DNA from: Candidatus Poseidoniaceae archaeon
Lineage (GTDB): Archaea; Thermoplasmatota; Poseidoniia; Poseidoniales; Poseidoniaceae
DNA: 64,000 nucleotides
Direction: 5' to 3'
NCBI GenBank assembly: GCA_028353405.1
Contig: JAOMOG010000002.1
Location: 31,583 to 95,582, forward strand
In this document: one piece after another, positions 3,099 to 48,705 of the stretch
Layout: every line of letters begins with the position of its first letter
Position numbering within the stretch: the first letter of the stretch is position 1
The notes under the pieces: model-generated
Databases searched by the model: none
What the model was told of the DNA's origin: nothing
What the model saw: the letters and a program-made list of their open reading frames with translations, nothing else
Translations under genes and position numbers: made by a program

Positions 3099-5753
3099 AT
3101 GACCTGGCACGGCGACATCGGAATTATCAGTGGCCGTTATCATTCCACTGAGGTCGTAGAGGGCGGCCAAACAATTCCTCGTACAGTGGTAGAGTTATTT
3201 GGCCGCAGTAAAACTGGACAATCTATTTGTTTGCTAATAGAGGGCCTTTCGCCAACCTTTGAAGTGGCTAGTTTGGCGCCATTGGATGAAGAAGGAGACT
3301 TACCTGAATATCTTGTAAATAGACTTCGTAGTCTGGAGGCGCACGCAGATATTGTCAGTTGTAAAGGTCCAGTAATGAAATTAACAGACTTGGGTATGAG
3401 GCCAACTTGGCAAATAGAAGTCAAACAACCATACCTCGTCCCTCAGTTACGCAAAAAATTACAACAGCAAGGCTGGAGTATTTTTTCAGGAGATATTCCT
3501 TATTTGAATAGAATCTTTTTAGATTTAGATCTAGGGATGCATGTTTCTGTTGAAGGACAATTAATCGATCAAAGAAGTGCTGATGATGAAGATGGTAGCC
3601 GAATTAATGCGGTAATTGAAGCGGGTGGAGTTGGCCGTTATCCGGTTGATATTACAGTTAGTTGTAATCTATCCAATTTGGTAGCAGCAGAACCATTCCC
3701 TGTTCCCTTCAAGGTATTTTCATTTGATTTGGAGACCAGCATTGCTCACAATACTGTACTATGTGGTGCTGCTTGGATTGAAAATATGCAAGATGGTACG
3801 CGTCAACAATTCACATTTGTTGGAGAAGAATCTCATATTCTTGAACAGATGACTCTTGTAGTTAGGGCAAATGATCCAGATATTATTACCGGCTACAATA
3901 TTGATAATTTTGATTTACCGCGGCTATTTGAGAGAACTGAAGTATTAGCTAAGAAAATAGAATGGAGAAAAAGAGCCCAATTATTAGGCTGGGGTAGAGT
4001 TCCCCAAATTGAATCGGAGTTGAAGCGAACTAGAACAGGGCTAATGCCGAAACGGCAATCCAATCGTGCTTGGAATCTAGCGGGGCGAGCAATAGTTGAT
4101 TGTTGGTGGCAAGCAAGAATTGCACTCAAGCCACAAAGAGAAACTCTAAGTTTTGTCTCTAAACTATTATTTCCAGATGATGATGAACGTCATAAAATGG
4201 ATATTGATGCATCAAATATGGATGTTGAATGGGCTAATCGGCCAGATGAAGTTCTTGAATATTGTATCAGAGATGCAGCTTTACCACTAGATATTCTAAA
4301 CGCAATACAAGTCATTCGTCGTAAGGAAGCGGTTGCCAGTGTTGCTAAGGTTAATTTTGATACCGCTGCCAATGGTAGCACAAGTCAGTTAATCGATTCC
4401 TTGGTTATTCGTTTAGCCGATTCAAAGAATGTTGCAGTACCATTAACTGGTTCAGCAGATGCAAAAGAAGGTCAGATTACAGGTGGATACGTTCACGATG
4501 TTGAAGCGGGTTTACATCCATGGATAGCGGTGCTGGATTTCAAAAGTATGTATCCTTCAATTATGATCGGCCACAATATATGCTACACCACAAGAATTGA
4601 CTCCAATCAAGACACTCAGCCTTCAGAAGGTGACTTGATTCATACTGCACCGACTGGTGCAAAATTCCTTCATCAAGAAAAACGTAAAGGATTAGTTCCG
4701 TTGTTATTAGAAGATTTGATGGCGCAAAGAGATGAACATAAAGCGGGTATGGCGGCCGCCAAAAACAATCAAGATGACAAGGCTTTACAATTTCATGACT
4801 CTATGCAATATGCGGTAAAGATTCTAATGAATTCTTTTTACGGTGTTTTCGCATCAGGATTTTATCGTTTTACTCATCGCGATTTAGGTTCATCAATTAC
4901 TGCATGGGCGCGTCATAATATCAAAGTGATAATCGCCAGGTTAGAAGAAGAAGGACATTCAGTAGTCTATTCTGATACCGATTCAATATTTGTCCGTTCA
5001 CCGGTTGACGAAAACGCAATTTCAGTTTTGAAAGAAGATTCAACTGAAGCAGAGATTGAAAATTGGAACAATGCAAAACAAGCAATGATCACCTTTGGGT
5101 TAGATATAGCGCAACGCTTTAGCAAAGATTCAGCAGTATTAGAATTTGAAAAAGGCTTATCTGTATTTTTCAGCCATGGTGCTAAGAAAAGATATGTTGG
5201 TCAAGTGGTTTGGCCGAGTGAAGAAATGTTAATCCGCGGCTATGAAACTCAAAGGACAGATACATTTTCCTATCTACGAGATACGATGAAGCAAATGTTT
5301 AATTTCGCTCTAGCCGATGAAGGCGAGGAGTTGGTACAATACGCATTAAGCAGAGTTCAAGCGGTAAAAAATAAACAAGTTGATGCTTCAGAATTAGTGC
5401 TTTCAAAGTCTTGTAAAGGGAAATTGAATAAAGATGGTTCTATCGATTTTACTAAACACTATGCAAATCCCGATTCTATGGCACAAGTTAGAATCGCTCG
5501 CGCTTTGATAGAAAAGGGACTTGGCTTCACTCCTGGTATGAAAGTTGCTTATATTGTAAGTGATGCTAGTAATAGGCCAATGAATGTAGAGCCATGGCTT
5601 GAGGGTGAAGAAAATGGTGGCATTAGCGGGTATGATGAGATATTCTATGCAGAACGAACTGCTGCTGCAATTGGCAGAATTACCGAGGCATTTGGGTGGA
5701 GTGCAAAAGAATTAGTTGCGGGTAACCGCCAAACCTCGCTTTTCTCCTTCTAA
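3099..5753 (+). CDS. polB: Family B DNA polymerase
   Basis: Exonuclease FSFDLETSI / ITGYNIDNFDLPRL; polymerase DFKSMYPSIMIGHNICYTTR, KILMNSFYGVFASGFYRF, VVYSDTDSIFV; likely ATG at 3099. Confidence 0.95.
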   Translation: MTWHGDIGIISGRYHSTEVVEGGQTIPRTVVELFGRSKTGQSICLLIEGLSPTFEVASLAPLDEEGDLPEYLVNRLRSLEAHADIVSCKGPVMKLTDLGMRPTWQIEVKQPYLVPQLRKKLQQQGWSIFSGDIPYLNRIFLDLDLGMHVSVEGQLIDQRSADDEDGSRINAVIEAGGVGRYPVDITVSCNLSNLVAAEPFPVPFKVFSFDLETSIAHNTVLCGAAWIENMQDGTRQQFTFVGEESHILEQMTLVVRANDPDIITGYNIDNFDLPRLFERTEVLAKKIEWRKRAQLLGWGRVPQIESELKRTRTGLMPKRQSNRAWNLAGRAIVDCWWQARIALKPQRETLSFVSKLLFPDDDERHKMDIDASNMDVEWANRPDEVLEYCIRDAALPLDILNAIQVIRRKEAVASVAKVNFDTAANGSTSQLIDSLVIRLADSKNVAVPLTGSADAKEGQITGGYVHDVEAGLHPWIAVLDFKSMYPSIMIGHNICYTTRIDSNQDTQPSEGDLIHTAPTGAKFLHQEKRKGLVPLLLEDLMAQRDEHKAGMAAAKNNQDDKALQFHDSMQYAVKILMNSFYGVFASGFYRFTHRDLGSSITAWARHNIKVIIARLEEEGHSVVYSDTDSIFVRSPVDENAISVLKEDSTEAEIENWNNAKQAMITFGLDIAQRFSKDSAVLEFEKGLSVFFSHGAKKRYVGQVVWPSEEMLIRGYETQRTDTFSYLRDTMKQMFNFALADEGEELVQYALSRVQAVKNKQVDASELVLSKSCKGKLNKDGSIDFTKHYANPDSMAQVRIARALIEKGLGFTPGMKVAYIVSDASNRPMNVEPWLEGEENGGISGYDEIFYAERTAAAIGRITEAFGWSAKELVAGNRQTSLFSF

Positions 5754-5802
5754 GGCGTACTTGGGAAGGAAGGGCTTTTCAAACAGCAGGCTTAGCAAGT
5801 AA

Positions 5803-7020
5803 ATGATGAAGTTACAATTTGGCCCAGTTTTGATGGCTTTCATGATGTTATTAGTCGGCTTATCAGGCTGTATTTTTGAGGAAGAAAATACCTCTTCAGG
5901 TGAACTATTTGCAGTTTTCAGTTTTTCATCAAGCAATGAAAACATCAGAGTCGGTGATACCGTCTCGTTTGATGCCAGTAGTTCAACTCCGGCCGATGGA
6001 AGTTTGACATACCGTTGGGATTTTGATGGCGACTTATCAGTAGATAAAACAGGAAAGACTGCCGAATGGTCTTATGATTCAGTCGGAATCAAAATGGTAA
6101 TATTAACAATTTCAGATGGCTTTGGATCTTCAGAACAGATTAGAAACTTAACCATTGTTGATGCTACAGCAGTCGCACCAATAGCCGAAATAACTCAGTA
6201 TAATGACGCTGAGGATTGTGAGGACAATGAAATCGATGAAAGCACAAAAATAGTAGTTTGGATGTGTCATTACGATAAAAGTCAAACTGATAGAGATGTG
6301 TCAGAAACAACCACTATCTCACTAGATGCATCTAATTCAGATGCAGGAGATCCTAACGAATATATTCCTGATTATGATTGGGACTTAGATCTAAATGTTG
6401 ATGCTGATAATGATGGAGATGCTGAAAATGATGTCGATTTGAGCGGTGAGTCTGTGAATTGGAACGATGTCCAACCAGGCGAATACCAGATAAAATTGAA
6501 CATAGTAAATAGCCAAGGTTTAGTTGATTCTGATACAATCAAAGTCTATGTCTCATATGCTGCTAAATGGTCAGACTTTGAGATGGCAGGAAATACTTCT
6601 GCAAACAATGACCCAAACAGCGAACTTGACTTTGACGTTACTATTTCCTATGATAAAGATACTGGAAATACCATTCGTAAGGTAGTTGCAGAGTTAACTT
6701 ATCCTCAGCAAGATGATGGTTGTATTGATACTGTCCCGGGCGAAGAATCAAATTGCCGTGCACAGTTAGAGATTTTTGCCTTCAATGAAGACGATGAAGA
6801 GGGGGGTAATACCGCAAATACAGGATTAGATCAACGTGATGATGGAGAGGATTGCGACGAAGAAAACGATTGCGTACACCTCGTCATGTCATCTTATCTT
6901 TTTGGTGATGCTGAAAACGACAACACCTATGGTGATGGGGATTGGACTTTCGATATTAGAAATGATAAACGGAATACACTTCAAGTGGAATCATTCGTCA
7001 TTAGATTAGTGTATGTCTGA
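5803..7020 (+). CDS. Lipoprotein with PKD-like domains, acidic
   Basis: N-terminal signal with lipobox LVGLSGC; PKD-like FDASSSTPADGSLTYRWDFDGD and LDASNSDAGDPNEYIPDYDWDLD. Confidence 0.75.
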   Translation: MMKLQFGPVLMAFMMLLVGLSGCIFEEENTSSGELFAVFSFSSSNENIRVGDTVSFDASSSTPADGSLTYRWDFDGDLSVDKTGKTAEWSYDSVGIKMVILTISDGFGSSEQIRNLTIVDATAVAPIAEITQYNDAEDCEDNEIDESTKIVVWMCHYDKSQTDRDVSETTTISLDASNSDAGDPNEYIPDYDWDLDLNVDADNDGDAENDVDLSGESVNWNDVQPGEYQIKLNIVNSQGLVDSDTIKVYVSYAAKWSDFEMAGNTSANNDPNSELDFDVTISYDKDTGNTIRKVVAELTYPQQDDGCIDTVPGEESNCRAQLEIFAFNEDDEEGGNTANTGLDQRDDGEDCDEENDCVHLVMSSYLFGDAENDNTYGDGDWTFDIRNDKRNTLQVESFVIRLVYV

Positions 7021-7140: not shown

Positions 7141-8781
7141 ATGGACTTAAAAGATACTGCTGGCAAACTAATCCAGGGTGATGTCAAAGGCGTTATTTCA
7201 GATGTTTCCAAGCAATTTGAGCGAACTGTAGGTTTGGCCGGTGTCATAATTATTTCACTTTCTGCAATGCTTGGTTCGGGACTCTTTGTATTACCTTCCT
7301 TTGCAGCAGTTATGATGGATGAAGGAATTTGGCTCGCATTTTTACTTGCGGCTTCAGTAGTTTTACCAGGGGCCTTTTCTAAATCAGAATTAGCATCTGG
7401 GATGCCCTCGAGTGGAGGTTCATATGTATATCTCGAAAAAACATATGGTCCTTTGGTTGGAACGATTAGCGGTATTGGCTTATGGGCGTCGTTTCTACTA
7501 AAAGCATCCTTTGCATTAATTGGTTTTTCTGCATATATGTACACAATAACTACTTACTTTGATTTTGAACTGAACTCTTATGTTGTATCAGCATCAGCAT
7601 TAATCTTAATCACAATCATCAACCTATTAGGGGTTAAGAAAGTTAAAGCCATTCAAGCACCAATTTTGGCATTAACCTTGTCTCTATTATTCGTTATTTC
7701 AATTATGGCATTGTTTGAACAATCTACCGATTTGTCAAGACCTTGGGATGCAGCAATGAGTGCTGATCCTTGGACTATCGCGGAAACATCCGCATTTGTT
7801 TTTGTTGCGTATGCTGGAGTAACCAAGGTTGCTGCAATCGGAGGGGAAGTTAAAAACCCGGGAAAGAATCTACCTTCTGGAATCATGATTTCGTTATTAA
7901 TTGCTACAGTTCTCTATTGTTCTATCACTTACATAATGATGGCCACAATTCCGGGTGAATGGTGGCTGAATAACGATGGGTCTACTATCGAAGATCCTAT
8001 TTACAAATTCGTTGAGACTGTAGCAGGTTCTAAAGTAGGCGTAGTAGCTGCAATTTTGGCTGTTTTAACCATGATTTCTATGGCATTGTCTGGTATTTTA
8101 GCGGCCTCACGATTTTTGTTTGCCATGGCTAGAGACAATTTACTCCCGCAGTCTCTAGAGGAAGTAAATGCAAAATATGAAACTCCACATTGGCCAATAA
8201 TTTTGACGGCTACAATCATGGGAATGGCCATACTATTACTTCCTGTGAAAGATGTTGCAAAGCTAGCCTCTGGATTCAAAATAATGATATTTATTATGAT
8301 CAATTCATGCGTTATTATTCTTCGTCAAACAGATTTCAAACATGAGTGGAATCCGGAATACCGCAGTCCATTATATCCATTCCTCCATATCTGGGGGATT
8401 TTAGCTGGTTTGGCTTTAGTTTACATTATGGGTGAAAAAGCATTCATTGGAGCTTCTGCAGCTATTGTGATGGGATTAATCGTATACTACCTGTACGGTA
8501 AAAAGCATGCACATCCAAGAGAAACTCCCTTTCACACTTTCAAACAAGAATTCCGTAATCCAACACCAGAAGAGCATAAACGCCGTGAGGAAATGTTCCA
8601 CATGGCGGATTTGGGTGGTAAGAATCATTTGACACTTACAGAATTCCAGCATGCATTGAAAAAACTTGGATTCAATTATAACGTGTACGAGTCCCGTATG
8701 ATTTTTCACAAAGCGGATATCAATGAAGATGGAGTTATTGACATTGACGAATTCCTCAATAACTTTGAAGGCGAAGAATGA
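7141..8781 (+). CDS. APC-family amino acid permease with C-terminal EF-hand domain
   Basis: GLAGVIIISLSAMLGSGLFVLPSFAA, multiple TM segments; C-terminus has the canonical EF-hand loop DINEDGVIDIDEF preceded by a degenerate one (DLGGKNHLTLTEF). Confidence 0.88.
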   Translation: MDLKDTAGKLIQGDVKGVISDVSKQFERTVGLAGVIIISLSAMLGSGLFVLPSFAAVMMDEGIWLAFLLAASVVLPGAFSKSELASGMPSSGGSYVYLEKTYGPLVGTISGIGLWASFLLKASFALIGFSAYMYTITTYFDFELNSYVVSASALILITIINLLGVKKVKAIQAPILALTLSLLFVISIMALFEQSTDLSRPWDAAMSADPWTIAETSAFVFVAYAGVTKVAAIGGEVKNPGKNLPSGIMISLLIATVLYCSITYIMMATIPGEWWLNNDGSTIEDPIYKFVETVAGSKVGVVAAILAVLTMISMALSGILAASRFLFAMARDNLLPQSLEEVNAKYETPHWPIILTATIMGMAILLLPVKDVAKLASGFKIMIFIMINSCVIILRQTDFKHEWNPEYRSPLYPFLHIWGILAGLALVYIMGEKAFIGASAAIVMGLIVYYLYGKKHAHPRETPFHTFKQEFRNPTPEEHKRREEMFHMADLGGKNHLTLTEFQHALKKLGFNYNVYESRMIFHKADINEDGVIDIDEFLNNFEGEE

Positions 8782-8830
8782 TATTCGTTAATTGCATATC
8801 TTAAAACGCTATGCATACCAGCGATGACTG

Positions 8831-10282
8831 ATGAGAAGAACACGTATTGTGTCTACCATCGGACCATCTTCCGACTCTCCCGAGATTCTAGAGTCGCTTC
8901 TTAGAGCCGGTGTTGATGTATGCCGATTGAATTATTCGCATGGCGAACCAGCAGAGAAAACTCCAATTTATGAACGCATAAGGGGATTTGAAAGCATAAT
9001 CGGTAGACCTACTTGCATACTTGCAGATTTACCAGGACCTAAACTGAGGCTAGGGGTTTTCCCTGGAGTCATTCTATTGGTCAAGGGCCAAACTGTAGAA
9101 CTTCACTGTGGTGTGGCTAAGATGAGTAACGCGAGTGCTGCAAAGTTACCAGTAGAATATGCAGGTCTTAGTTCAGAATTAAATGTCAACGATCCAGTTC
9201 TTATCGCCGATGGCCTGATTAGATTGGTTGTTACGCAGACGAAAGGCAAATCAGCTGGTATTGTAACATGTGTCGTTGACGATGGCGGCCCAGTTAGTAA
9301 GAGAAAAGGAATCAATGTTCCAAGCACAATGGTGGATTTGCCAGCTATTGGAAAAAATGACAAACTCGCATTAGAACATGCGCTTCAACATGGCGCAGAT
9401 TATATTGCAGTCAGTTATGTTCGTACTGCTGCAGATTTACTACCGGCTAAAGAAGCGATAAAAAAGGCTGGGCAACATGTTCCTATCATTGCTAAAATAG
9501 AACACCCAGCCGCTTTAGAGAATCTAGAAGAGATTCTAGATATGGCTGATGCTGTGATGGTTGCGAGGGGCGATTTGGGAGTGGAAATTCCACTGGAACA
9601 AGTTCCGTTGGCCCAACAAAGAATCATTGATGGTGCATTGCAAAGAGGTATGCCGGTGATTGTTGCGACACAAATGCTAGATTCGATGATTCTGAATTCG
9701 CGGCCTACAAGGGCTGAAGTGAGTGATATTTCTAATGCGATTCGTTTTGGTGCTACAGCTGTGATGCTCTCCGGTGAAACCGCTTCTGGAAACTATCCAC
9801 TACAATCGGTTGAGACGATGGCGAAAATTGCTATTGCTACTGAACAAGGTTTGGAGTCATCAGGTGCTAGTCCAAGCGGATTGGTAAGATACAAAGCAAC
9901 AAGAGCAGTTGCACATGCTGGTGTTGAATTGGCAAAAATTAGTAAAGCGGTAAGACTTATTGTTGCTACTGAGCATGGTAATGCGCCGAGATTGGTTGCA
10001 GGACACCAGCCAGGGATTCCAATTACTGCGGTCAGCGATAGGATTAGAGCGACTCGAAGAGTCCAATTATTGCCGGGCGTTGATAGTATAATTATCAAAG
10101 AACACCAACGCGGTTCAGAAACAATGGAGGCAGCGGTTTCAGCGCTTTTGGCGGATGGAAGGCTCAACTTCGGAGATCGTGTAGTTGCAATCTCAGGAAG
10201 CCCTCTTGCAATGAGGGGTGTGACTAGTACAATCCGAATGTATCGCATCTCCAAAGATGGAACAATTCTTGGAGCCGAATAA
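8831..10282 (+). CDS. pyk: Pyruvate kinase
   Basis: MRRTRIVSTIGPSSDSPEILESLLRAGVDVCRLNYSHG, ADLPGPKLRLG, AKIEHPAALENLEEI, VMVARGDLGVEIPLEQVPLAQ, ATQMLDSMILNSRPTRAEVSDISNA. Confidence 0.96.
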   Translation: MRRTRIVSTIGPSSDSPEILESLLRAGVDVCRLNYSHGEPAEKTPIYERIRGFESIIGRPTCILADLPGPKLRLGVFPGVILLVKGQTVELHCGVAKMSNASAAKLPVEYAGLSSELNVNDPVLIADGLIRLVVTQTKGKSAGIVTCVVDDGGPVSKRKGINVPSTMVDLPAIGKNDKLALEHALQHGADYIAVSYVRTAADLLPAKEAIKKAGQHVPIIAKIEHPAALENLEEILDMADAVMVARGDLGVEIPLEQVPLAQQRIIDGALQRGMPVIVATQMLDSMILNSRPTRAEVSDISNAIRFGATAVMLSGETASGNYPLQSVETMAKIAIATEQGLESSGASPSGLVRYKATRAVAHAGVELAKISKAVRLIVATEHGNAPRLVAGHQPGIPITAVSDRIRATRRVQLLPGVDSIIIKEHQRGSETMEAAVSALLADGRLNFGDRVVAISGSPLAMRGVTSTIRMYRISKDGTILGAE

Positions 10283-10473
10283 TCGGCCGTAATAACCACT
10301 CTCGCTAATGTTTGAAAATTGGGGCATTTGAGATTATTCCGCCCATTATTTTGAATCCATAAGTCCCCTGTGGCCCGATTGTGTCGATTATTATTTACAT
10401 TAAGTTAGATAAAAACCGTCGCGGTCTTCAAATAGGGGTTTCTTGTCGGCTGACTCGCTAAGGAGTTATCAAT

Positions 10474-11763
10474 ATGGGATCTCAATGGGAAGATAGAAGC
10501 AAGTCACACCTGAATATCGTGTTTATCGGGCACGTAGACCACGGAAAGTCCACTACTGTTGGACGCCTACTGTTGGACTCCGGTCACATCGAAGGTCACG
10601 TAGTTGAAAAGAACGAAAAGCTCGCTGCAGAATCTGGTAAGGCTGGATTCGGTCTTGCGTACGTCATGGACGGACTAAAGGAAGAGCGCGAACGTGGTAT
10701 TACTATCGACGTTGCTCACAAGGAATTTTTCACACCTAACTACTACTGGACTGTTATTGACGCTCCAGGTCACCGCGATTTCGTAAAGAACATGATTACT
10801 GGTGCTTCACAAGCTGACGCAGCAGTTCTACTCTGTGCAGCAAATGATGGTGTCAACTCACAAACCAAGGAACATGCTTTCCTTGCTCGTGTACTTGGTG
10901 TTTCACAACTCATCGTCCACGTCAACAAGATGGATATCTCTGGTGTTGACTGGTCCGAAGACAAGTATAAGGCAGCATGTGCAGAAGTTAGCACTCTACT
11001 AAAGCAAGCAGGATACAAGCCAGATGACATACCAATGATTCCAGCATCTTCTCTAAACGGAGACAATGTCTTCAACAAGTCCGATAAGTGCCCTTGGTAC
11101 AATGGACCTACACTGTTCGAGGCTATTGACAAGGTTACAATGCCTCCTAAGCCAGTTGACAAAGCACTTCGCTTGCCGATTCAAGATGTCTACAAGATTT
11201 CAGGTATCGGAACTGTTCCAGTAGGAAAGATCGAAACAGGAACTCTAAACGTTGGAAAGACTGTTGTCTTCAATCCATCACAGAAGTCTGCTGAAGTCAA
11301 GTCTATTGAGATGCATCACACAATGGTTGACAGGGCAGAGCCTGGTGACAACGTTGGATTCAACGTTCGTGGCCTAGCAGCTGTTGACATCCGCCGTGGA
11401 GACGTTGCAGGATACACAGACTCTGCACCTACATTCGTTCGTCATGACGAAACATTCGTTGGACAGATTAGTATCATGGGTATTCCAAAGGCAGTTTCAG
11501 TAGGATACACTCCTGTATTCCACGCTCACACTGCTCAAGTTGCAATCCGCTTCTTGGATCTTCTAGAAAAGACCAACAAGAAAGGAAAGGAAGCAAATCC
11601 TTCTTTCCTAAAGACTGGAGACCAAGCAATGATTCGCTTCCAGCCTACCAAGCCTTTTGCAATCGAGCAATTGGAGGACTTCCCACAACTTGCCCGCTTC
11701 GCTATTCGTGACATGGGTAAGACAGTCGCCGCTGGTGTTTGTCTAAAGATTGAAAAGAAGTGA
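10474..11763 (+). CDS. tuf: Translation elongation factor 1-alpha (aEF1A)
   Basis: [57 protein letters not shown]. Confidence 0.97.
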
Positions 11764-32640: not shown

Positions 32641-32904
32641 TTACAACCAAACAATGGGCAATGATTGCTTTAGTGCACCGAGTTCTTCACCACTATAGAC
32701 AGGTTTTCCATCTTGTTTCAGAGTGTTCATTATCAGCCATAGAACGCCATTCCAGGCGTTCGGTGCAACGAATATTTCAACATGACCACACGCAGCAGCC
32801 TCGAGTAACCTTCCTTCCTCAGTATTGGTATCAAATAAAGCACGGACTAAATTTGCCGCTTTGAATTCAAATCCTTTTGGTCTCCAATCCATCATGAGTT
32901 TCAC
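32641..32904 (-). CDS. Small protein of unknown function, GTGA overlap with the upstream RHH-like gene
   Basis: 87 aa MDWRPKGFEFKAANLVRALFDTNTEEGRLLEAAACGHVEIFVAPNAWNGVLWLIMNTLKQDG; GTG start overlaps the preceding stop. Confidence 0.6.
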   Translation of the reverse strand: MKLMMDWRPKGFEFKAANLVRALFDTNTEEGRLLEAAACGHVEIFVAPNAWNGVLWLIMNTLKQDGKPVYSGEELGALKQSLPIVWL

Positions 32905-33143
32905 ACCTTGAATGGAGCTAGATTTAATCGGTCAGCCAATTGATCAACAGGGACATCTGCAATATCTTTCATTCGCTGGCGCAAAGTGTCTATTTCACCT
33001 TGCATCTTTGCGATTTTGTGAGCACGTACCATGTCGTTTAGCAAATCGTTTACACTTCTATGTCCACTACTAGTTCGCATTGTGTTAAGTTGTCTTCTTA
33101 CTTCATAACTTACGCTAATCGATGTCATTCCTTCTGCAGTCAT
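32901..33143 (-). CDS. Putative RHH/VapB-like DNA-binding protein
   Basis: MTSISVSYEVRRQLNTMRTSSGHRSVNDLLNDMVRAHKIAKMQ: strand-helix-helix pattern of RHH/antitoxin type, then a coiled coil. Confidence 0.55.
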   Translation of the reverse strand: MTAEGMTSISVSYEVRRQLNTMRTSSGHRSVNDLLNDMVRAHKIAKMQGEIDTLRQRMKDIADVPVDQLADRLNLAPFKV

Positions 33144-36955: not shown

Positions 36956-37537
36956 ATGGCAGTTGAAATTCTTGAATCTCCGGTTGAGGGAATAATTCCA
37001 ATTGAGACTCATCGAAGATTGCTGGATTATCATATCGGGCCAGTGGACATTGAATTAACATTCAATCATAGGCTGGCCCACGAAAATGGCTGGAGTCATG
37101 GCTATGCAGATTATGTGGTTGAAGAATACAAGCGATTCGCCTATTTGTGCACCCATGGCAATCAAGTCTGCACTCCCTCAAAAGATGTAGATCAAGCATG
37201 GCATTTACATCTAACCTATACCAATGATTATTGGAATATTTTTTGTCCTAAATTACTTGGTAAAGATTTGCACCATGGCCCTACAATCGGTGGAATGGAA
37301 GATGAAATGAAGTATAGACAACACTACATTGAAACTTTGCAATTATATGAATCTGTATTTGGACGTAAACCTCCAAGCAATATTTGGAAAGACGTTGATA
37401 CAAGATTTTCCCATGATAGTAACTCGCAATGGGTTGACTTAGCAAGCAATATCATTACTTCAAAAAATAGCCTTTTGATCAAGGTAACTTCTGCGGTACT
37501 CATTGGAGTATTGCTTGGGTATTTGTTCCCTTTTTAA
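36956..37537 (+). CDS. GRDP-like (glycine-rich domain-containing protein-like) protein with C-terminal TM
   Basis: VVEEYKRFAYLCTHGNQVCTPSKDVDQAWHLHLTYTNDYWNIFCPKLLGKDLHHGPTIGG; C-terminal TM VLIGVLLGYLFPF. Confidence 0.65.
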   Translation: MAVEILESPVEGIIPIETHRRLLDYHIGPVDIELTFNHRLAHENGWSHGYADYVVEEYKRFAYLCTHGNQVCTPSKDVDQAWHLHLTYTNDYWNIFCPKLLGKDLHHGPTIGGMEDEMKYRQHYIETLQLYESVFGRKPPSNIWKDVDTRFSHDSNSQWVDLASNIITSKNSLLIKVTSAVLIGVLLGYLFPF

Positions 37538-37599
37538 TAACGGCTCAACAAACATAGTGACGGAGCGGAATTAGTCTTAAATACCCTACGAAACGTGTA

Positions 37600-40581
37600 A
37601 TGTTTATGGTCGCAGAGATTCACGATGTTTTGAAACAAGGTCCGTATTCTAATTGGAACGAATTGCATGAACAGATCTCGCAAATTGACGAAAGTACCAC
37701 TGCTAAAGGCGATGCATTTGAGCAATTTTCTTATTTTTACCTTCTCTATCACAAAGATATATACGAAATCGAGGAGATTTGGTGTGATAAAGTTCCAAAC
37801 CGAGAAATTCCGGATTATTTTAAAGATCAAAAAGGCAAGTATAGGATTGGAGCAGGGAAAGATATAGATCATGGGACAGATTTAGTCGCCCAACTAAAGG
37901 GATTTGAGGAGCCTCACGAAGCATACCAGGCTAAATTTCGTTCAGATTACAGCACCCACCCGTCATCTCATGAATTGTCAACTTTTTGGAATGATTCTGT
38001 AAGATTTGAGCGAAGACGAATTATTACTTCATCTGATACTGTCGCTAATACCGATAAAAATACTGACTACTTTGATAATGCCGCTCATCATATTTACAGA
38101 GGGGACTTTCTAAATATTTCTGACCCAGAAGATTTCTTTGCTAAGCTCCATGAATGGGCAAATGACCAAGAAAAAGTCCCAGAGAGAACACTGTATGAAC
38201 CTCTTGACCATCAAGAAGAAATGATCAAAGATGTTGTTGCTGGTTTTGTTAAATTAAAGAAAAAGCAAGACCAGCGTGGAAAATTAATTGCTGCCTGTGG
38301 AACAGGGAAAACCCTAGCAGCATTATGGATTACAGAACATTCTGACTTGGATATCTCTAATCTATTGTTCCTTGCGCCAACAATAGAATTGACAGCTCAA
38401 ACTTTTAGAGAATGGGCAATGCAACATAAAGAGGAATTTGATTTCCTTATCATTTGTAGTGATGATGATGCAGGCAATGTTGGAGAAGATAATTCAGATA
38501 TTCCGGTATCAGATCTAGGAATTAGAGTAACAACAGATGTTCATGAAATCTTGGGTTTCCTAGATATGAAATCCGATAAGAGGAAATATGTATTCAGCAC
38601 TTATCAATCATCAGATAGAATTAGAGAAGCGATGGAACTTACGACGGCATTCAAATCATTTGATTTGATAATATTTGACGAAGCACATAGGACTGCATCA
38701 AAAACATTCGATCCTAAAGGAGGCATGCAAGTAGCAATTGATAACACCAAAATTGATTCAAAACGTCGATTGTTTATGACGGCTACAGAGAGAATACAAA
38801 CTCCAAGAGTGAAAAAGTACCTTGAAACTGCTGGCAAAGATTATTTTTCAATGGATGATGAGGACAAGTATGGTACTACCTTTCACTCCCTAACATTCGG
38901 CAAAGCGATTAAGCAAAAAATCATTGCAGATTATCGAATTATTCTTGCAGGATGCGACTATCAAGGGGAGGATGAAGATGTAATTTTAGATGCTATTGTG
39001 GAAGTCAACGGGATAAGTAAACCTTTGACTTATCTTGAAGTATACCAAGCTCTTTTCGTTTCTAAACTTATAGATGAAGGAACAATTAGCAAAGTTTTGA
39101 CGTTTCAAAACACCGTTGCTAGGGCCCAGGCTTTCTCATATCTATTAAGAACAATTAACGGGGTATCAGATATCAATATTGATGCCATATGGGGAGAAGA
39201 AGGAATCGCTAGTCGTAGAGAGAAAAAATCACAGTTTGGATTGGCTAAAAAAGCAGTTCTATCAAATGTACGTTGTCTATCAGAAGGGGTAGATTTACCG
39301 ATGATAGATTCAGTAGTATTTTGTGACGACCGCAGTTCACCGATTGATTTAATCCAAGCTGTAGGAAGAGCACTTCGTATGAAGAAAGGTGAAGATAAAG
39401 TTGCTACTATTCTAATACCAGTTCCAATTCCATCGGATACCAAAACATTGGATGATGTTGATTGGGATAATGTACCAGGAATGACTACTTTTCACGAGAT
39501 TCTTCAGGCATTAAGAGATCAAGACGGTATTTTAAATGAAGAAATAGAAGAGATTCATGTCCAATCTACAAAAAGCACATTGGGTAAAAAAAGAAGTAGC
39601 GGTAGTGCAAAGACACAAGGGAAAATATTGGTAATCCCACCACCTTCTTTGAAGATTAATTTACATGATATGTGGGATAAAATTGGGATACGTATTTCCG
39701 CAGCGAATTTCCGTAAAAAGGGAGAAAAATCTATTTTTGTGTTTGAAAAACCAGGAGATAGAAAATCCAAACATAAATCAAAGTTTGCTTTATTTGGAAA
39801 TTATAATATTCAAAACGGAATGAAAAATGAGTGTTTAGAAGTTATTGCACAATTATCAGTTGATAGAAAACCGATTTTAAAATCCACACTTAAGACATAT
39901 GCTTCTTCTGAGGGCAACAACACTGCATCAATGCTCATCTCAATCGGAGCAGTGAAAGAAATAGATAGAAATACTGTTGTGATTACGTCTTTGGGCCTTA
40001 GATTAAAATCTCATCCAGAGCAATGGGATGATGTTGTAATTAATCAAGCATTAATTTTTTCCAAGAACGGTATTCTCCCATATCGTTTAATTCTTAACAT
40101 TTTATCCGAATACAGGTTTTTGAATTATCATGAGTATCTATTGGGAATTAGTCAGATAGAAGTTATTGGAATACTGCCTGATTTTGAAAAAATGCATAGC
40201 ACAATTACTTATTTGAGGAAAAATTATCCAAATGGATTAGGCGGAATTCCAGATGGTAGACATGAAGAAACTATTGCCGAACTTGAAAGTAATGGGATCG
40301 CTATTAATGTTGAAACGAAAGACATATGGTCATCAGGAACTACTCAAAGAAATTATTGGGGATATCTTAGATCTTGTATGGAAGTATTGCCCTTTATTTC
40401 AACAAAGAATGACCCGGACAAAGGCCTGATAATATATCTAAAAAGTAAAGAAGCATTGAAGGAATTGAAGATATCGCTTATAGATTCCTCCAAAGCCCTA
40501 GGGAAGGAATATGGTTCAGCAAGCTCGTGGTGGTATACCTCTCCAGAAGAAGAAGATGATGATGATGATTACCCGTTTTAA
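37600..40581 (+). CDS. Predicted restriction nuclease-helicase: N-terminal PD-(D/E)XK (Mrr/type ISP-like) plus SF2 DEAH helicase
   Basis: N-terminal AFEQFSYFYL...GKDIDHGTDLVAQLKGFEEPHEAYQAKFR (D...QxK core); Walker A AACGTGKTLAA; DEAH IIFDEAHRTAS; MTATERI; motif VI QAVGRALRMK. Confidence 0.85.
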   Translation: MFMVAEIHDVLKQGPYSNWNELHEQISQIDESTTAKGDAFEQFSYFYLLYHKDIYEIEEIWCDKVPNREIPDYFKDQKGKYRIGAGKDIDHGTDLVAQLKGFEEPHEAYQAKFRSDYSTHPSSHELSTFWNDSVRFERRRIITSSDTVANTDKNTDYFDNAAHHIYRGDFLNISDPEDFFAKLHEWANDQEKVPERTLYEPLDHQEEMIKDVVAGFVKLKKKQDQRGKLIAACGTGKTLAALWITEHSDLDISNLLFLAPTIELTAQTFREWAMQHKEEFDFLIICSDDDAGNVGEDNSDIPVSDLGIRVTTDVHEILGFLDMKSDKRKYVFSTYQSSDRIREAMELTTAFKSFDLIIFDEAHRTASKTFDPKGGMQVAIDNTKIDSKRRLFMTATERIQTPRVKKYLETAGKDYFSMDDEDKYGTTFHSLTFGKAIKQKIIADYRIILAGCDYQGEDEDVILDAIVEVNGISKPLTYLEVYQALFVSKLIDEGTISKVLTFQNTVARAQAFSYLLRTINGVSDINIDAIWGEEGIASRREKKSQFGLAKKAVLSNVRCLSEGVDLPMIDSVVFCDDRSSPIDLIQAVGRALRMKKGEDKVATILIPVPIPSDTKTLDDVDWDNVPGMTTFHEILQALRDQDGILNEEIEEIHVQSTKSTLGKKRSSGSAKTQGKILVIPPPSLKINLHDMWDKIGIRISAANFRKKGEKSIFVFEKPGDRKSKHKSKFALFGNYNIQNGMKNECLEVIAQLSVDRKPILKSTLKTYASSEGNNTASMLISIGAVKEIDRNTVVITSLGLRLKSHPEQWDDVVINQALIFSKNGILPYRLILNILSEYRFLNYHEYLLGISQIEVIGILPDFEKMHSTITYLRKNYPNGLGGIPDGRHEETIAELESNGIAINVETKDIWSSGTTQRNYWGYLRSCMEVLPFISTKNDPDKGLIIYLKSKEALKELKISLIDSSKALGKEYGSASSWWYTSPEEEDDDDDYPF

Positions 40582-40595
40582 TAATTAGAGAGATT

Positions 40596-40656
40596 GTTAA
40601 TTATTGATTCACTTTCACTTTTTATTCATCCGCCCCCTTGCTAAATGATAATTAAC
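40596..40656. promoter_or_regulatory. Inverted repeat GTTAATTAT...ATAATTAAC upstream of the methyltransferase gene
   Basis: GTTAATTAT at 40596-40604 and its exact reverse complement ATAATTAAC at 40648-40656. Confidence 0.4.
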
Positions 40657-40707
40657 CATCGGCCTTGAAATTGTCTTATCATAGTTACATATGCAGGTGG
40701 ATAATTG

Positions 40708-42570
40708 ATGGTAAATATTCAACCTATACAATATTCTGTTAAGGCTAAAACACATAGTGCCCCTTATCAAATGCACAAGTACTATGCAAGAAGGCCATAC
40801 AATGTCTTTAGAAATTTAATAGAGCATTATTCCAAGCCGGGAGATTTGATTCTGGATTGCTTTTGTGGTGGAGGTGTGACTCTATTGGAAGGCTTGACTG
40901 TTGACCGTAAAATAATTGCAGTCGATCTAAACCCACTAGCGACTTTCATTACAAAGATGCAAATACAACAAATTGACATTGATTCATTGGAGGAATATTT
41001 TAGTGAATTCCGCAAAATATGCGAGGACGAATATAGTAAATATTACTTTCAAAAAACTCCCGATGGAGAACAAGAAGTAGATTGGGTAGAGTACATTTAT
41101 GAGGTTGAGTGTCCAAAGTGTGAATCATCAATATTACTCTCAGAAGAAAATAAAGTTCGAAATGGTTATTACACTTGTAATAATTCCAAATGTGAAAGTA
41201 ACTTAACCCAAAAAGGGCTTAAGAGAACTGATTGTCGACCCATATCGACAGCACCTTCAAGACTTAGTTATACATTAGAGAATGATACTAAATTGCATAA
41301 CTTATCACAGAATGAGAAAATAATTATTTCTCAAGCAAAGTATGACTATACAATACATGCTGATTTACAGGAGATAGATATTGAAGTTCCTTCAAATTGG
41401 GACAGATGGCATGAAGATTGTTTACCACAGAAAGGAGTACATAGATTTCCGGATTTTTTTACAGAGAAAAATTATTTCATCAATGTAATGATTTTTAATA
41501 AAATACTTGCAATGGACAAATCAGAATTTAGAGATTTACTTTATTTCGCTTTTAGTTCATCTTTAAGATATACCAACAAGATGTCTAGAGTTGTACAAGA
41601 TTGGGAAGGAGGAAACCCAACATGTATGGATAAACATGCATATTGGTTGCCAAATATTTTTGTGGAAACAAATATTTTACATTACTTAAAAAAGCGAATG
41701 GGAAGTGTGGTTAAGGGAATGAAATACATCCAAGAAACAATACCAAGCAACAAAAAAGAGGCCAATTCATTCGAAGAAATCATCGAGGATGGCGATTATA
41801 TGATACTAAATCAGAGTTCTAGTCGTCTTTCGATTCCTTCGGAGTCGATAAGCGCAGTTATCACAGACCCGCCTTATGGCAGTAATGTTCAGTATGGGGA
41901 ATTATCTGCATTTTGGAATGTTTGGTTGATGCAATATTTGGGCCTTGATAATTTTCAATATTTGGACGAAGAAGCAATATCAAATCGGAAACTGAAGAAG
42001 ATTGAAGGGAAAAACTCGCAACATTATGAGGACATGTTATTTTCAATTTTTTCTGAAGCGAACCGAGTCCTGAAACCGAATGGATATCTTGTATTTACTT
42101 TCAACAATAAGGATATTGACATTTGGGTCCGGATGCTTAGAGCAGTAGTGAAATCTGGCTTTATTTTACCCCGAGATGGACTAATTTACCAAAAATACAT
42201 CAAAGGTTATGAAAATACAGCTCACCTGAAATCAGAAGGAAATATCCAAGGAGATTATATTTATTCATTCATCAAAGGCAGTATTGCATATTCCGAAGAT
42301 ATTAACCTTAATTTATTCGAAACCGAATTAACTCAGACCATTCATGGGTGTGTAGAAAAATTATTCTTACAAAAATCAGAATATAATACTCCAACTCTAT
42401 ATCAGTATATTTTCAGTGAAATTGTCTCGATGCTAATGAAGTATCTTCATGCTGAACAGTATGTAGGAGAAAAAGTAGGTACTAACCTTACAAAAACATC
42501 TATTGACAAAATTCTTGAATTAGTTCTCAATAATGATGATCACATATGGACTTTAAAGGACGGTGATTAA
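40708..42570 (+). CDS. DNA methyltransferase with Zn-ribbon insert (COG1743-like adenine-specific)
   Basis: SAM motif LILDCFCGGGVTLLEGLTVDRKIIAVDLNP; catalytic VITDPPYGSNVQYGE; inserted CPKC...CNNSKC ribbon between motif I and motif IV. Confidence 0.85.
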   Translation: MVNIQPIQYSVKAKTHSAPYQMHKYYARRPYNVFRNLIEHYSKPGDLILDCFCGGGVTLLEGLTVDRKIIAVDLNPLATFITKMQIQQIDIDSLEEYFSEFRKICEDEYSKYYFQKTPDGEQEVDWVEYIYEVECPKCESSILLSEENKVRNGYYTCNNSKCESNLTQKGLKRTDCRPISTAPSRLSYTLENDTKLHNLSQNEKIIISQAKYDYTIHADLQEIDIEVPSNWDRWHEDCLPQKGVHRFPDFFTEKNYFINVMIFNKILAMDKSEFRDLLYFAFSSSLRYTNKMSRVVQDWEGGNPTCMDKHAYWLPNIFVETNILHYLKKRMGSVVKGMKYIQETIPSNKKEANSFEEIIEDGDYMILNQSSSRLSIPSESISAVITDPPYGSNVQYGELSAFWNVWLMQYLGLDNFQYLDEEAISNRKLKKIEGKNSQHYEDMLFSIFSEANRVLKPNGYLVFTFNNKDIDIWVRMLRAVVKSGFILPRDGLIYQKYIKGYENTAHLKSEGNIQGDYIYSFIKGSIAYSEDINLNLFETELTQTIHGCVEKLFLQKSEYNTPTLYQYIFSEIVSMLMKYLHAEQYVGEKVGTNLTKTSIDKILELVLNNDDHIWTLKDGD

Positions 42571-43932
42571 TTGTCTGAGATAAAAAACCGCTACCACCCT
42601 TATCAAAACAATGAATTGGGGCAGTATATTCAGTCTCTTGAGACTCGATATAATATAAAGGATGAAATTAATTTCTTTAGTCAATTAGTCAACTTTTCCA
42701 AAAATGTTGATGCCCCTTATCATCGTTGGTTTAAGTACAGAGAAGGTTTTTCTCACACTCTTGTTTCGGAATTGATAAAGAGAAGTGAGATTACTTCTGA
42801 TGAATACATAATCGATCCTTTTTGTGGTAGCGGTACAACAGTTTTGGAAGCTAAAAAGTTAGGTTTTTCCGGTTTGGGCATTGATATCAACCCGATGTCT
42901 ACATTTACTTCTCTAGTAAAATGTAGGACTTATGACGACAATGAAATTCAAGAAATAGAACAATGCTTAGAAGAAATTAAAGAACTCTATCCCGAAGAAA
43001 TAATAGAAGACGAAACACAAGAAAAATATGCAATTTGTGATAAATTTTTTAGTTCTCATAATTTTCAACAGTTATTGAAAATACGCCAAGTACTGAATTC
43101 ATTGGATACTATAGGAAAAATTTCTGACTTATTTCTTTGCGGCTATCTTTGTATTATTGAAGAAGTTTCAGACAGAAAAAGGGATGGTAATGGCTTGAGA
43201 AAGAGAACTTCTAGAGTTACCAATGTTGTTAATCATTATGTTGAAAAAATCCAATCAATGCTAACCGATATCAAAAATAAACGACTTAAAAACAGTATAT
43301 TTTCAGATATAAAATTAGGAAACGCGACCGATATGACCGCGATTTGTAGCGAATTAATTAATGCAGAAGTCACTCCCGGTGCTATCATTTATTCCCCACC
43401 TTATCCGAATTCATTCGATTATTTTGAATCCTACAAAATGGAATTGTATCTTGGGGATTTTATTGAAAACAGTAGTGATTTGGCAGACCTAAGAAAACAA
43501 GCGATTCATTCCTTTGTTCGTCCCGGTGTGAATTTGAAACAAACTCCAAAATACATCAATTGGATGAGTCAAGAGATTGAATGTGCAATACCTGAAAAAG
43601 AAGAAAGAACCGGTAAAAAGGACATTCGTACTCGTAAAGTTCCTGCTATGATCATAGGCTATTTTGCAGATATGGAGGAAGTAATCAAACAAAGTTCACA
43701 AACCCTAAGTGAAGGGAAAAAATGCTACATTGTTGTAGATCAAAGTGCGTATCTTGGAAAAATTGTACCGACTGATTTATTCCTTGCCGAAATTGCCGAA
43801 AATTATGGATTTAGTGTAGAGGAGATAATAGTGTGCAGAAGGGCAAGAACCTCACCACAACAATTGAAATTATACCCTTACTTAAACGACCTTCTGCGGG
43901 AAAGTATCGTAGTTTTGAAAAGACTTGCATAG
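42571..43932 (+). CDS. DNA methyltransferase (N6-adenine/N4-cytosine class)
   Basis: IIDPFCGSGTTVLEAKKLGFSGLGIDINPMSTF and IIYSPPYPNSFDYFESYK; TTG start directly follows the upstream TAA. Confidence 0.85.
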   Translation: MSEIKNRYHPYQNNELGQYIQSLETRYNIKDEINFFSQLVNFSKNVDAPYHRWFKYREGFSHTLVSELIKRSEITSDEYIIDPFCGSGTTVLEAKKLGFSGLGIDINPMSTFTSLVKCRTYDDNEIQEIEQCLEEIKELYPEEIIEDETQEKYAICDKFFSSHNFQQLLKIRQVLNSLDTIGKISDLFLCGYLCIIEEVSDRKRDGNGLRKRTSRVTNVVNHYVEKIQSMLTDIKNKRLKNSIFSDIKLGNATDMTAICSELINAEVTPGAIIYSPPYPNSFDYFESYKMELYLGDFIENSSDLADLRKQAIHSFVRPGVNLKQTPKYINWMSQEIECAIPEKEERTGKKDIRTRKVPAMIIGYFADMEEVIKQSSQTLSEGKKCYIVVDQSAYLGKIVPTDLFLAEIAENYGFSVEEIIVCRRARTSPQQLKLYPYLNDLLRESIVVLKRLA

Positions 43933-43938
43933 AAAAGA

Positions 43939-47477: not shown

Positions 47478-48464
47478 CTAATTTTTCCATTCTAATGTTT
47501 CCATTAATTGGTTGACTCCACGTGCTAAAGCCGGTCCGCCGGAGATGACATCTCTAGGGTTGGATAAACTACCAGTAGCATGTACTCCGTCAACATATCT
47601 TAGTAGCCTGGCAATAGCACCACCGGTGAATAATCCATGTGAACATGCAGCGTGAACTTCGATTGCTCCTTGACTTCGTAGTGCTTCAGCTGCACGACAA
47701 ATTGTGCCGCCGGTAGCGATCATATCATCGACAATTGCAACCTTCTTGCCATCAACATCCAAATCCTTTGCCTTGTGGATAATTGTATGAGCGTCTATTC
47801 GAGTCTTTTCCAGATAACTAAATTGGCAATTGATAGTTCTTGCAACTTCACTGGCTCTCTCAATTGCACCTTTATCTGGTGATAAGATGAAATCAGGTGC
47901 TACAGTCTCTTGTAAATGCTTAGCGAGTTCAGGCATTGCGGAAGTAAATGCTACAGGAACTGGCAAATCTTCCAGTACCTTAGGGGCATGTAAATCAAAA
48001 ACGACAATCCCATCACAACGAGATGCCATTAATTGGCCGATAGCACGTGCAGAAATTGCTTCCCCCGGTTTGAATCTCTTATCTTGTCTAGAATATCCGA
48101 AGTATGGTATTGCAAGAAGGATTCCTGGGCCGACGTCAGGTAATTGTTGAGGTCCGATTTCTCGGAGGTTTTCCATCTTGCCACTTCGGACATCATTGAT
48201 CGCCTCCAACATTAGTAATGTTTCAATAATTCCAGCATCAGGAAATGTGTTGGAAACCAATACTACTGGTTCACTTCGCACATCCTCTATTATTTCTTCA
48301 GGAATGCGAGTATAGCCCTCAGTGTCAGGAAAACGCCTAGTTTCAAGACTGTGATGAGTCCATCCCAATGCTTCAGCAAGTTGGGTTGCAAGCAACCTCG
48401 AATTACTTCCGGATAGGACTACCATGGGTGCTGCCTCATGTATGGGTGAGCGCCGCCCCTTCAT
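47478..48464 (-). CDS. prs: Ribose-phosphate pyrophosphokinase
   Basis: RRFPDTEGYTRIPEE, YFGYSRQDKRFKPGEAISA, VAIVDDMIATGGTI; start MKGRRSPIHEAAP at 48464. The longer ORF start is an artefact running through a tRNA. Confidence 0.93.
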   Translation of the reverse strand: MKGRRSPIHEAAPMVVLSGSNSRLLATQLAEALGWTHHSLETRRFPDTEGYTRIPEEIIEDVRSEPVVLVSNTFPDAGIIETLLMLEAINDVRSGKMENLREIGPQQLPDVGPGILLAIPYFGYSRQDKRFKPGEAISARAIGQLMASRCDGIVVFDLHAPKVLEDLPVPVAFTSAMPELAKHLQETVAPDFILSPDKGAIERASEVARTINCQFSYLEKTRIDAHTIIHKAKDLDVDGKKVAIVDDMIATGGTICRAAEALRSQGAIEVHAACSHGLFTGGAIARLLRYVDGVHATGSLSNPRDVISGGPALARGVNQLMETLEWKN

Positions 48465-48524
48465 GTTCTTTACTTCTAAAATCAAAATCAGATAAGGATT
48501 GAAATTACAATAATAAATGAAATT

Positions 48525-48601
48525 TGGTGCGCGAGGCAGGACTTGAACCTGCGACCTCCCGGTTATCAGCCGGGTGCTCCAACCGACTAAGCTACCCGCG
48601 C
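48525..48601 (-). tRNA. tRNA-Ile (GAT), encoded 3' CCA
   Basis: Reverse complement GCGCGGGTAGCTTAGTCGGTTGGAGCACCCGGCTGATAACCGGGAGGTCGCAGGTTCAAGTCCTGCCTCGCGCACCA; anticodon stem-loop CCCGG-CTGATAA-CCGGG. Confidence 0.96.
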
Positions 48602-48705
48602 TTGGGTAATTCCGCCGACTCGCAACCCCGTCATAAGAGTGACGGAATAACAGTACTGTGATGTCATTCGCTGTCAAGGCGAATCATATGGCGTTTTTGC
48701 CACAT

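Follow-up and report, generated by a model that had tools for sequence, protein, structure and literature searches.

The 64,000-nucleotide window analysed here (positions 31,583-95,582 of the forward strand of contig JAOMOG010000002.1, assembly GCA_028353405.1, Candidatus Poseidoniaceae archaeon) carries a cassette of three plus-strand genes that occupies 37600-43932, encodes a nuclease-helicase (H) and two predicted DNA methyltransferases (M1 and M2), and is a conserved unit. The N-terminal nuclease and superfamily 2 (SF2) motor of H resemble those of type ISP enzymes, and its C-terminal domain is a homologue of the DNA-recognition half of the type IIS enzymes AlwI and Nt.BspD6I. Judged from sequence, the cassette is fairly probably a complete, mobile and stand-alone restriction-modification (R-M) system, in which H would read an asymmetric site and cut after ATP-driven movement, with M1 and M2 each protecting one strand. 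It thus appears ISP-like in cutting and motor and type IIS-like in reading and protection, and is a member of neither group. Its features are as follows.

37600-40581, plus strand: H, 993 residues; Mrr-type nuclease, SF2 motor and C-terminal AlwI/BspD6I-like predicted DNA-recognition domain
37696-38028, plus strand: nuclease domain of H, residues ~33-143, with G92-x-D94...Q110-A-K112; placed by nine homologues, the alignment with LlaBIII and the Pfam family Mrr_cat_2 in a viral homologue (L029)
38194-39519, plus strand: SF2 motor of H, residues ~199-640; GTGKT at 234, DEAH at 360, TAT at 394, QAVGRALR at 586
39907-40482, plus strand: predicted recognition domain of H, residues ~770-961; placed by hhalign with a shuffle control and by PF09491 in another homologue (L075)
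40705-42570, plus strand: M1, 621 residues; predicted amino-methyltransferase
42571-43932, plus strand: M2, 453 residues; predicted amino-methyltransferase
37451-43937, no strand: inserted segment, from comparison with the empty sites of two near relatives (G098 and G756)

Domain make-up of H, M1 and M2

A preliminary description of this DNA had placed a nuclease-helicase gene and two co-directional methyltransferase genes (with DPPY and SPPY motifs) at 37600-43932, and all three open reading frames (ORFs) are found there on the plus strand; they are not chance ORFs, given their length and full domain matches. H and M1 are separated by 123 bases, and M2, as described, begins with TTG directly after the TAA of M1. 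An alternative ATG at 40708, behind an AGGTGGA stretch, may be the true start of M1. Shine-Dalgarno-like stretches precede M1 and M2; for H, an archaeal TATA box serving a leaderless transcript may instead lie at window 37577-37584 (CTTAAATA), ~23 bases 5' of its first ATG.

In H, Pfam places ResIII at residues 199-396 and Helicase_C at 487-594. The PD-(D/E)XK-like core suspected at the N-terminus is borne out by the signature G92-x-D94...Q110-A-K112, which is invariant across nine H homologues, and by Mrr_cat_2, which exceeds its Pfam cut-off in the homologue of L029. The form in which Q replaces E (PD-QxK) is typical of type ISP enzymes (PMC3874165). The motor motifs GTGKT, DEAH, TAT and QAVGRALR are likewise invariant or nearly so. 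The best solved-structure match by sequence is the type ISP enzyme LlaBIII (4xqk, E 5e-48, over the nuclease-helicase region), followed by LlaGI (5ffj). An AlphaFold model built from nine homologues, of moderate confidence (mean predicted local distance difference test score 69.5, predicted template modelling score 0.48), has a nuclease fold at the N-terminus, and Foldseek ranks the same enzymes first, led by 4xqk at E 5e-27, with SauUSI as a lower-ranked match. By sequence and model, then, H combines an Mrr-type PD-QxK nuclease with an SF2 motor behind it; LlaBIII is its closest solved relative, and neither route offers a better match than type ISP, the relation proposed earlier.

The type ISP likeness of H weakens past residue ~660-710, the alignment with LlaBIII past ~710, and H ends at residue 993 with no methyltransferase match in Pfam or PADLOC. 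Only residues 6-421 of the 1646-residue REase_MTase_IIG model of PADLOC are matched by H, so PADLOC would label it a fragment of a single-chain enzyme; no known defence-system protein in PADLOC matches H over its full length.

To judge from profile comparison, the C-terminus of H probably forms a target-reading domain of its own, of the type IIS kind. An alignment of eleven H C-termini (A7) was compared by hhalign with one of five AlwI-family enzymes (A8), which is homologous to Nt.BspD6I at E 1.5e-79. The two align with probability 94.9, E 4.3e-8 and score 67.6 over 173 columns, spanning H residues ~770-961 and columns 66-257 of the 556 in the AlwI set. None of 100 column shuffles scored above 24.9 or gave an E below 0.033, and the reversed profile, the M1 profile and the M2 profile gave no match to the AlwI set. 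In the L075 homologue, RE_AlwI (PF09491) is matched at 25.0 bits against a cut-off of 23.1, over profile positions 1-93 of 441; this single Pfam match and the profile-profile comparison are the only routes by which the AlwI link is visible. The A7 profile had no HMMER match among solved structures, nor does any PADLOC model match the H C-terminus. The matches are confined to the N-terminal half of the AlwI family, and its C-terminal nuclease is not found in H. The N-terminal domain of Nt.BspD6I is considered DNA-binding owing to its likeness to FokI (PMC8533099), and by analogy the AlwI-like domain would read DNA within H. The preliminary description, which saw no HsdS-like specificity subunit and counted this as a gap, was therefore probably mistaken.

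M1 and M2 are predicted to be separate amino-methyltransferases. Both match N6_N4_Mtase, with motif I ahead of motif IV: DCFCGGG at 51 and DPPY at 388 in M1, DPFCGSG at 82 and SPPY at 275 in M2. M1 also carries an insert with a zinc-ribbon-like Cys4 arrangement (C136, C139, C158 and C163). The better PADLOC matches of both proteins are mostly type II methyltransferases, the top match of M1 being a PglX model, and Foldseek on an M1 model gives weak, general class I methyltransferase matches only. Plasmid-borne relatives of M2 belong to various kinds of type II-like system, with a second methyltransferase beside two of them.

Conservation and recent acquisition of the cassette

The proposed cassette holds together far beyond the source genome, since all three genes occur at 10 distinct loci, in three arrangements: in the window archaeon, a congener, a Bacillota genome and seven viral contigs. 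The viral contig L029, found through an M2 search, has H, M1 and M2 in the window order at 31-38% identity, and further viral contigs came from profile scans after it. The loci other than the window, with two that are cut by contig ends, are listed here.

G239, congener: H truncated by the contig start; M1 and M2 present
G357, Bacillota genome: all three genes
L029/L073 and L079, viral contigs: WYL regulator leads the trio
L080/L072, viral contig: all three genes
L071, viral contig: order M1-M2-H
L077, L076 and L070/L078, viral contigs: H convergent
L070, 6647-10030, viral contig: M1 and M2 fused in a single chain of 1128 residues
L075: M2 and H only, contig end cuts the locus
L081: M1 and M2 only, contig end cuts the locus

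Wherever M2 of at least 35% identity lies on a viral contig of sufficient reach, H is always present; beside the distant M2 relatives (24-26%) there is none. Full-length H is rare, occurring in 1 of 399 Bacillota genomes, 0 of 277 in one actinobacterial phylum and 0 of 58 in a third phylum, and H, in one case truncated, occurs in 2 of the 293 genomes of the window's class, in a sampling that is thin beyond Bacillota, the actinobacterial phylum and the window's class. In other phyla, most relatives of H are ISP proteins whose match ends near profile position 630-700; full-length H scores 1254 bits, against at most ~460 bits for canonical ISP proteins. Against plasmids and phages, tblastn with H and two homologues returned nothing but partial matches of a type ISP-like kind, all below 80% query coverage, and no annotated named plasmid or phage member of the family. 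When H and M1 were themselves used as protein queries against viral contigs, unrelated helicases were the most that came up.

The pairwise distances of M1 and M2 correlate (Spearman 0.70). Those of H correlate poorly with either (Spearman 0.24-0.27), an effect of the long stem that carries the archaeal H. The branching of the three trees is otherwise broadly alike; given the low correlation of H, no strict co-inheritance is claimed.

Neighbours of the trio in relatives include WYL regulators, a McrB-like AAA ATPase, GmrSD, a serine recombinase, and phage portal and tail genes. In L070, a GmrSD-type gene (4443-6095) lies just 5' of the fused M1-M2. A McrB-like AAA_5 ATPase follows the trio in L079 (8904-11123) and suggests a second restriction system in that island. 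Directly 5' of H in L076 (12641-13882) is a 414-residue IrrE/M78 peptidase-like protein with a zinc ribbon, possibly a regulator, whose position is taken by WYL proteins in L029 and L079.

In the window, the cassette is adjoined by the gene for archaeal IF5B (aIF5B), which, with a gene for an L7Ae-like ribosomal protein, suggests by gene content an archaeon probably of the Poseidoniales. The site is empty in G098 and G756: in these near relatives, 98-99% identical to the window in the aIF5B C-terminus, the 5' neighbour (window 36956-37537) stands directly beside aIF5B. The right edge of the insert is sharp (43937/43938), the left is blurred (37451-37537), and no target duplication is evident at these edges. 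The G+C content is 0.363 in H, 0.338 in M1 and 0.344 in M2, against 0.408 for the window. Low G+C (0.34-0.36 versus 0.41) and absence from all but the two genomes of the class mark the cassette as recently acquired and dispensable.

DNA identity between the window and G239 is 77-78% inside H and 95% from window base 40549 on, across M1, M2 and the chromosome; the sharp step from 77% to 95% (L060 1-1860 against window 38722-40581) thus falls at the 3' end of H. The two strains have different H alleles beside near-identical methyltransferases, which suggests that H, apparently alone, was exchanged through recombination; the G239 contig starts inside H.

Comparison with known systems and rival explanations

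Type ISP enzymes share with H an N-terminal Mrr-type PD-QxK nuclease with an SF2 motor directly behind it, and an asymmetric site would be expected for both. In type ISP, a methyltransferase and a recognition domain read the site and one strand is modified; cleavage follows the collision of two enzymes coming from head-to-head sites, and newly replicated host DNA is spared (PMC4666363, PMC4872093, PMC7049714). The relatives examined here are, however, single chains of ~1,500-1,680 residues with a coupler, a gamma-class methyltransferase and an M.TaqI-like recognition domain in cis, whereas the H family measures 930-990 residues, has none of these, including any C-terminal M.TaqI/type I-like recognition domain, and pairs an AlwI-like domain with two separate methyltransferases. 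Of 13 distinct ISP-like proteins examined, 11 have NPPY or NPPW near residue 1000; the AlwI profile matches none of the 13. Split ISP genes (e.g. in Natranaerobius) were rejected as equivalents, their methyltransferase motif being still of the ISP type. A Rhodococcus plasmid (L062, NZ_AP023173.1) encodes at 7911-11552 a type ISP-like nuclease-motor protein of 1214 residues without a PPY methyltransferase motif; it adjoins a 1360-residue protein and is possibly another ISP-like system lacking a methyltransferase in cis.

With AlwI, Nt.BspD6I and FokI, the cassette shares a homologous recognition domain and the paired methyltransferases expected for an asymmetric site, but AlwI-type enzymes lack an ATP motor and carry a C-terminal nuclease of their own, and in H the domain sits behind the Mrr nuclease and SF2 motor. 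With CglI and NgoAVII, the cassette would share ATP dependence, a stand-alone methyltransferase, an asymmetric site and movement along DNA (PMC5737866, PMC4267653); in those systems the nuclease (R protein) and DEAD-family ATPase motor are separate proteins, and there is one methyltransferase. Type III (Mod and Res) systems also combine an SF2 motor with a separate methyltransferase, but the nuclease of H is N-terminal and Mrr-type, there are two methyltransferases here, and neither matches a Mod model in NCBIfam. The earlier "type I-like" label did not hold up, as none of the three genes matches HsdS or HsdM, both methyltransferases being of the N6_N4_Mtase type. The cassette belongs to none of types ISP, I and III. 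The combination is absent from the catalogues searched, and the searchable literature, with REBASE outside its scope, held no paper joining type ISP with AlwI, nor such a cassette in Poseidoniales/Marine Group II or in prophages.

Under the preferred reading, the AlwI/BspD6I-like domain of H would bind a short asymmetric sequence without help from M1 or M2. At an unmodified site, the SF2 motor would leave and move along the DNA on ATP, and the N-terminal PD-QxK nuclease would cut once one H molecule runs into another, in the manner of type ISP. A non-palindromic site usually calls for a pair of methyltransferases, one for each strand (PMC12898733), and M1 and M2 may each methylate one strand of the same site, as paired type IIS methyltransferases do. 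The preliminary description had them acting on two sites or two strands; the two-strand part fits the type IIS-like recognition domain and is retained as an inference. Because M1 and M2 would each methylate one strand, both daughter duplexes would be hemi-modified and protected after replication. With both strands modified, an orientation rule would be unneeded, a link discussed for CglI (PMC5737866).

Several observations weigh against this reading. L075 is the sole H homologue that exceeds the PF09491 cut-off by itself, and, as far as PMC8533099 says, no DNA complex of the AlwI/BspD6I-type family has been crystallised. M1 and M2 each have their own insert between motifs I and IV and could read different sites. 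The H proteins of the two congeners are 67% identical and their M1 and M2 91-93%, so H and the methyltransferases are not evolving in step.

The same congener comparison bears on a type III-like or type I-like complex, in which H would need bound M1 or M2 to find its site and its C-terminus would only bind or couple. Such dependence would be in keeping with the resemblance of H to ISP enzymes, where an in-cis methyltransferase and recognition domain do the reading (PMC4872093), and with the order H-M1-M2, with overlaps, at several loci. It is nevertheless considered unlikely: the C-terminal domain matches a recognition domain rather than a coupler, H lies on the strand opposite to the methyltransferases in five loci, and the strong divergence of H beside nearly unchanged M1 and M2 suits independent proteins better. 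Somewhat less likely again is that one methyltransferase protects against H and the other is an accessory or anti-restriction enzyme with another site. M1 and M2 show no close similarity to one another, their motif IV forms differ, and M2 homologues elsewhere serve other kinds of type II systems, some with one methyltransferase; against this, every trio locus with enough contig keeps both, they are fused in L070, and their distances correlate.

That H is a modification-dependent, type IV-like nuclease beside unrelated methyltransferases seems very improbable. The methylation-dependent, ATP-driven nuclease SauUSI does appear among the structural matches, but LlaBIII is a far better one, and a host that always carries two apparently active methyltransferases beside such a nuclease would itself come under attack. 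Low G+C and rarity in the class would also be compatible with chance neighbours or a decayed island; yet co-occurrence of the trio refutes a chance neighbourhood, and with 10 loci retained, catalytic motifs all intact and no frameshift, this explanation has the slimmest chance of all. Whether the preferred system amounts to a distinct ATP-dependent restriction class, in which a translocating R protein freed from the methyltransferase locates an asymmetric site by itself through a type IIS-like domain and two methyltransferases guard both strands, is judged evenly balanced.

Window context and significance

The genome around the window is incomplete (1.38 Mb in 54 contigs, 66% complete). Elsewhere in the window, two small overlapping minus-strand genes at 32641-33143 (80 and 87 residues) are toxin-antitoxin-like in appearance. 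A ribose-phosphate pyrophosphokinase ORF at 47478-48677, read from TTG, overlaps the tRNA-Ile gene at 48525-48601; translation probably begins instead at an internal ATG (MKGRRSPIHEAAP).

Type ISP systems modify one strand, and they depend on the orientation of their sites to keep freshly copied host DNA from being cut. In the H family, modification is separate from the motor-nuclease, and the reading head seems to be borrowed from type IIS enzymes; the family may provide a natural experiment on whether the orientation rule arises from one-strand modification. If H is indeed a self-locating R protein, the head-to-head rule that protects type ISP and type III hosts would be unneeded, and motor and recognition modules would be interchangeable in nature between type I-like and type II enzymes. 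H would also be a motor nuclease of compact size, with a recognition module that could perhaps be swapped for others. For marine archaea and phages, the cassette would add an R-M type that current annotation would enter as orphan methyltransferases next to a disrupted type ISP/IIG gene.

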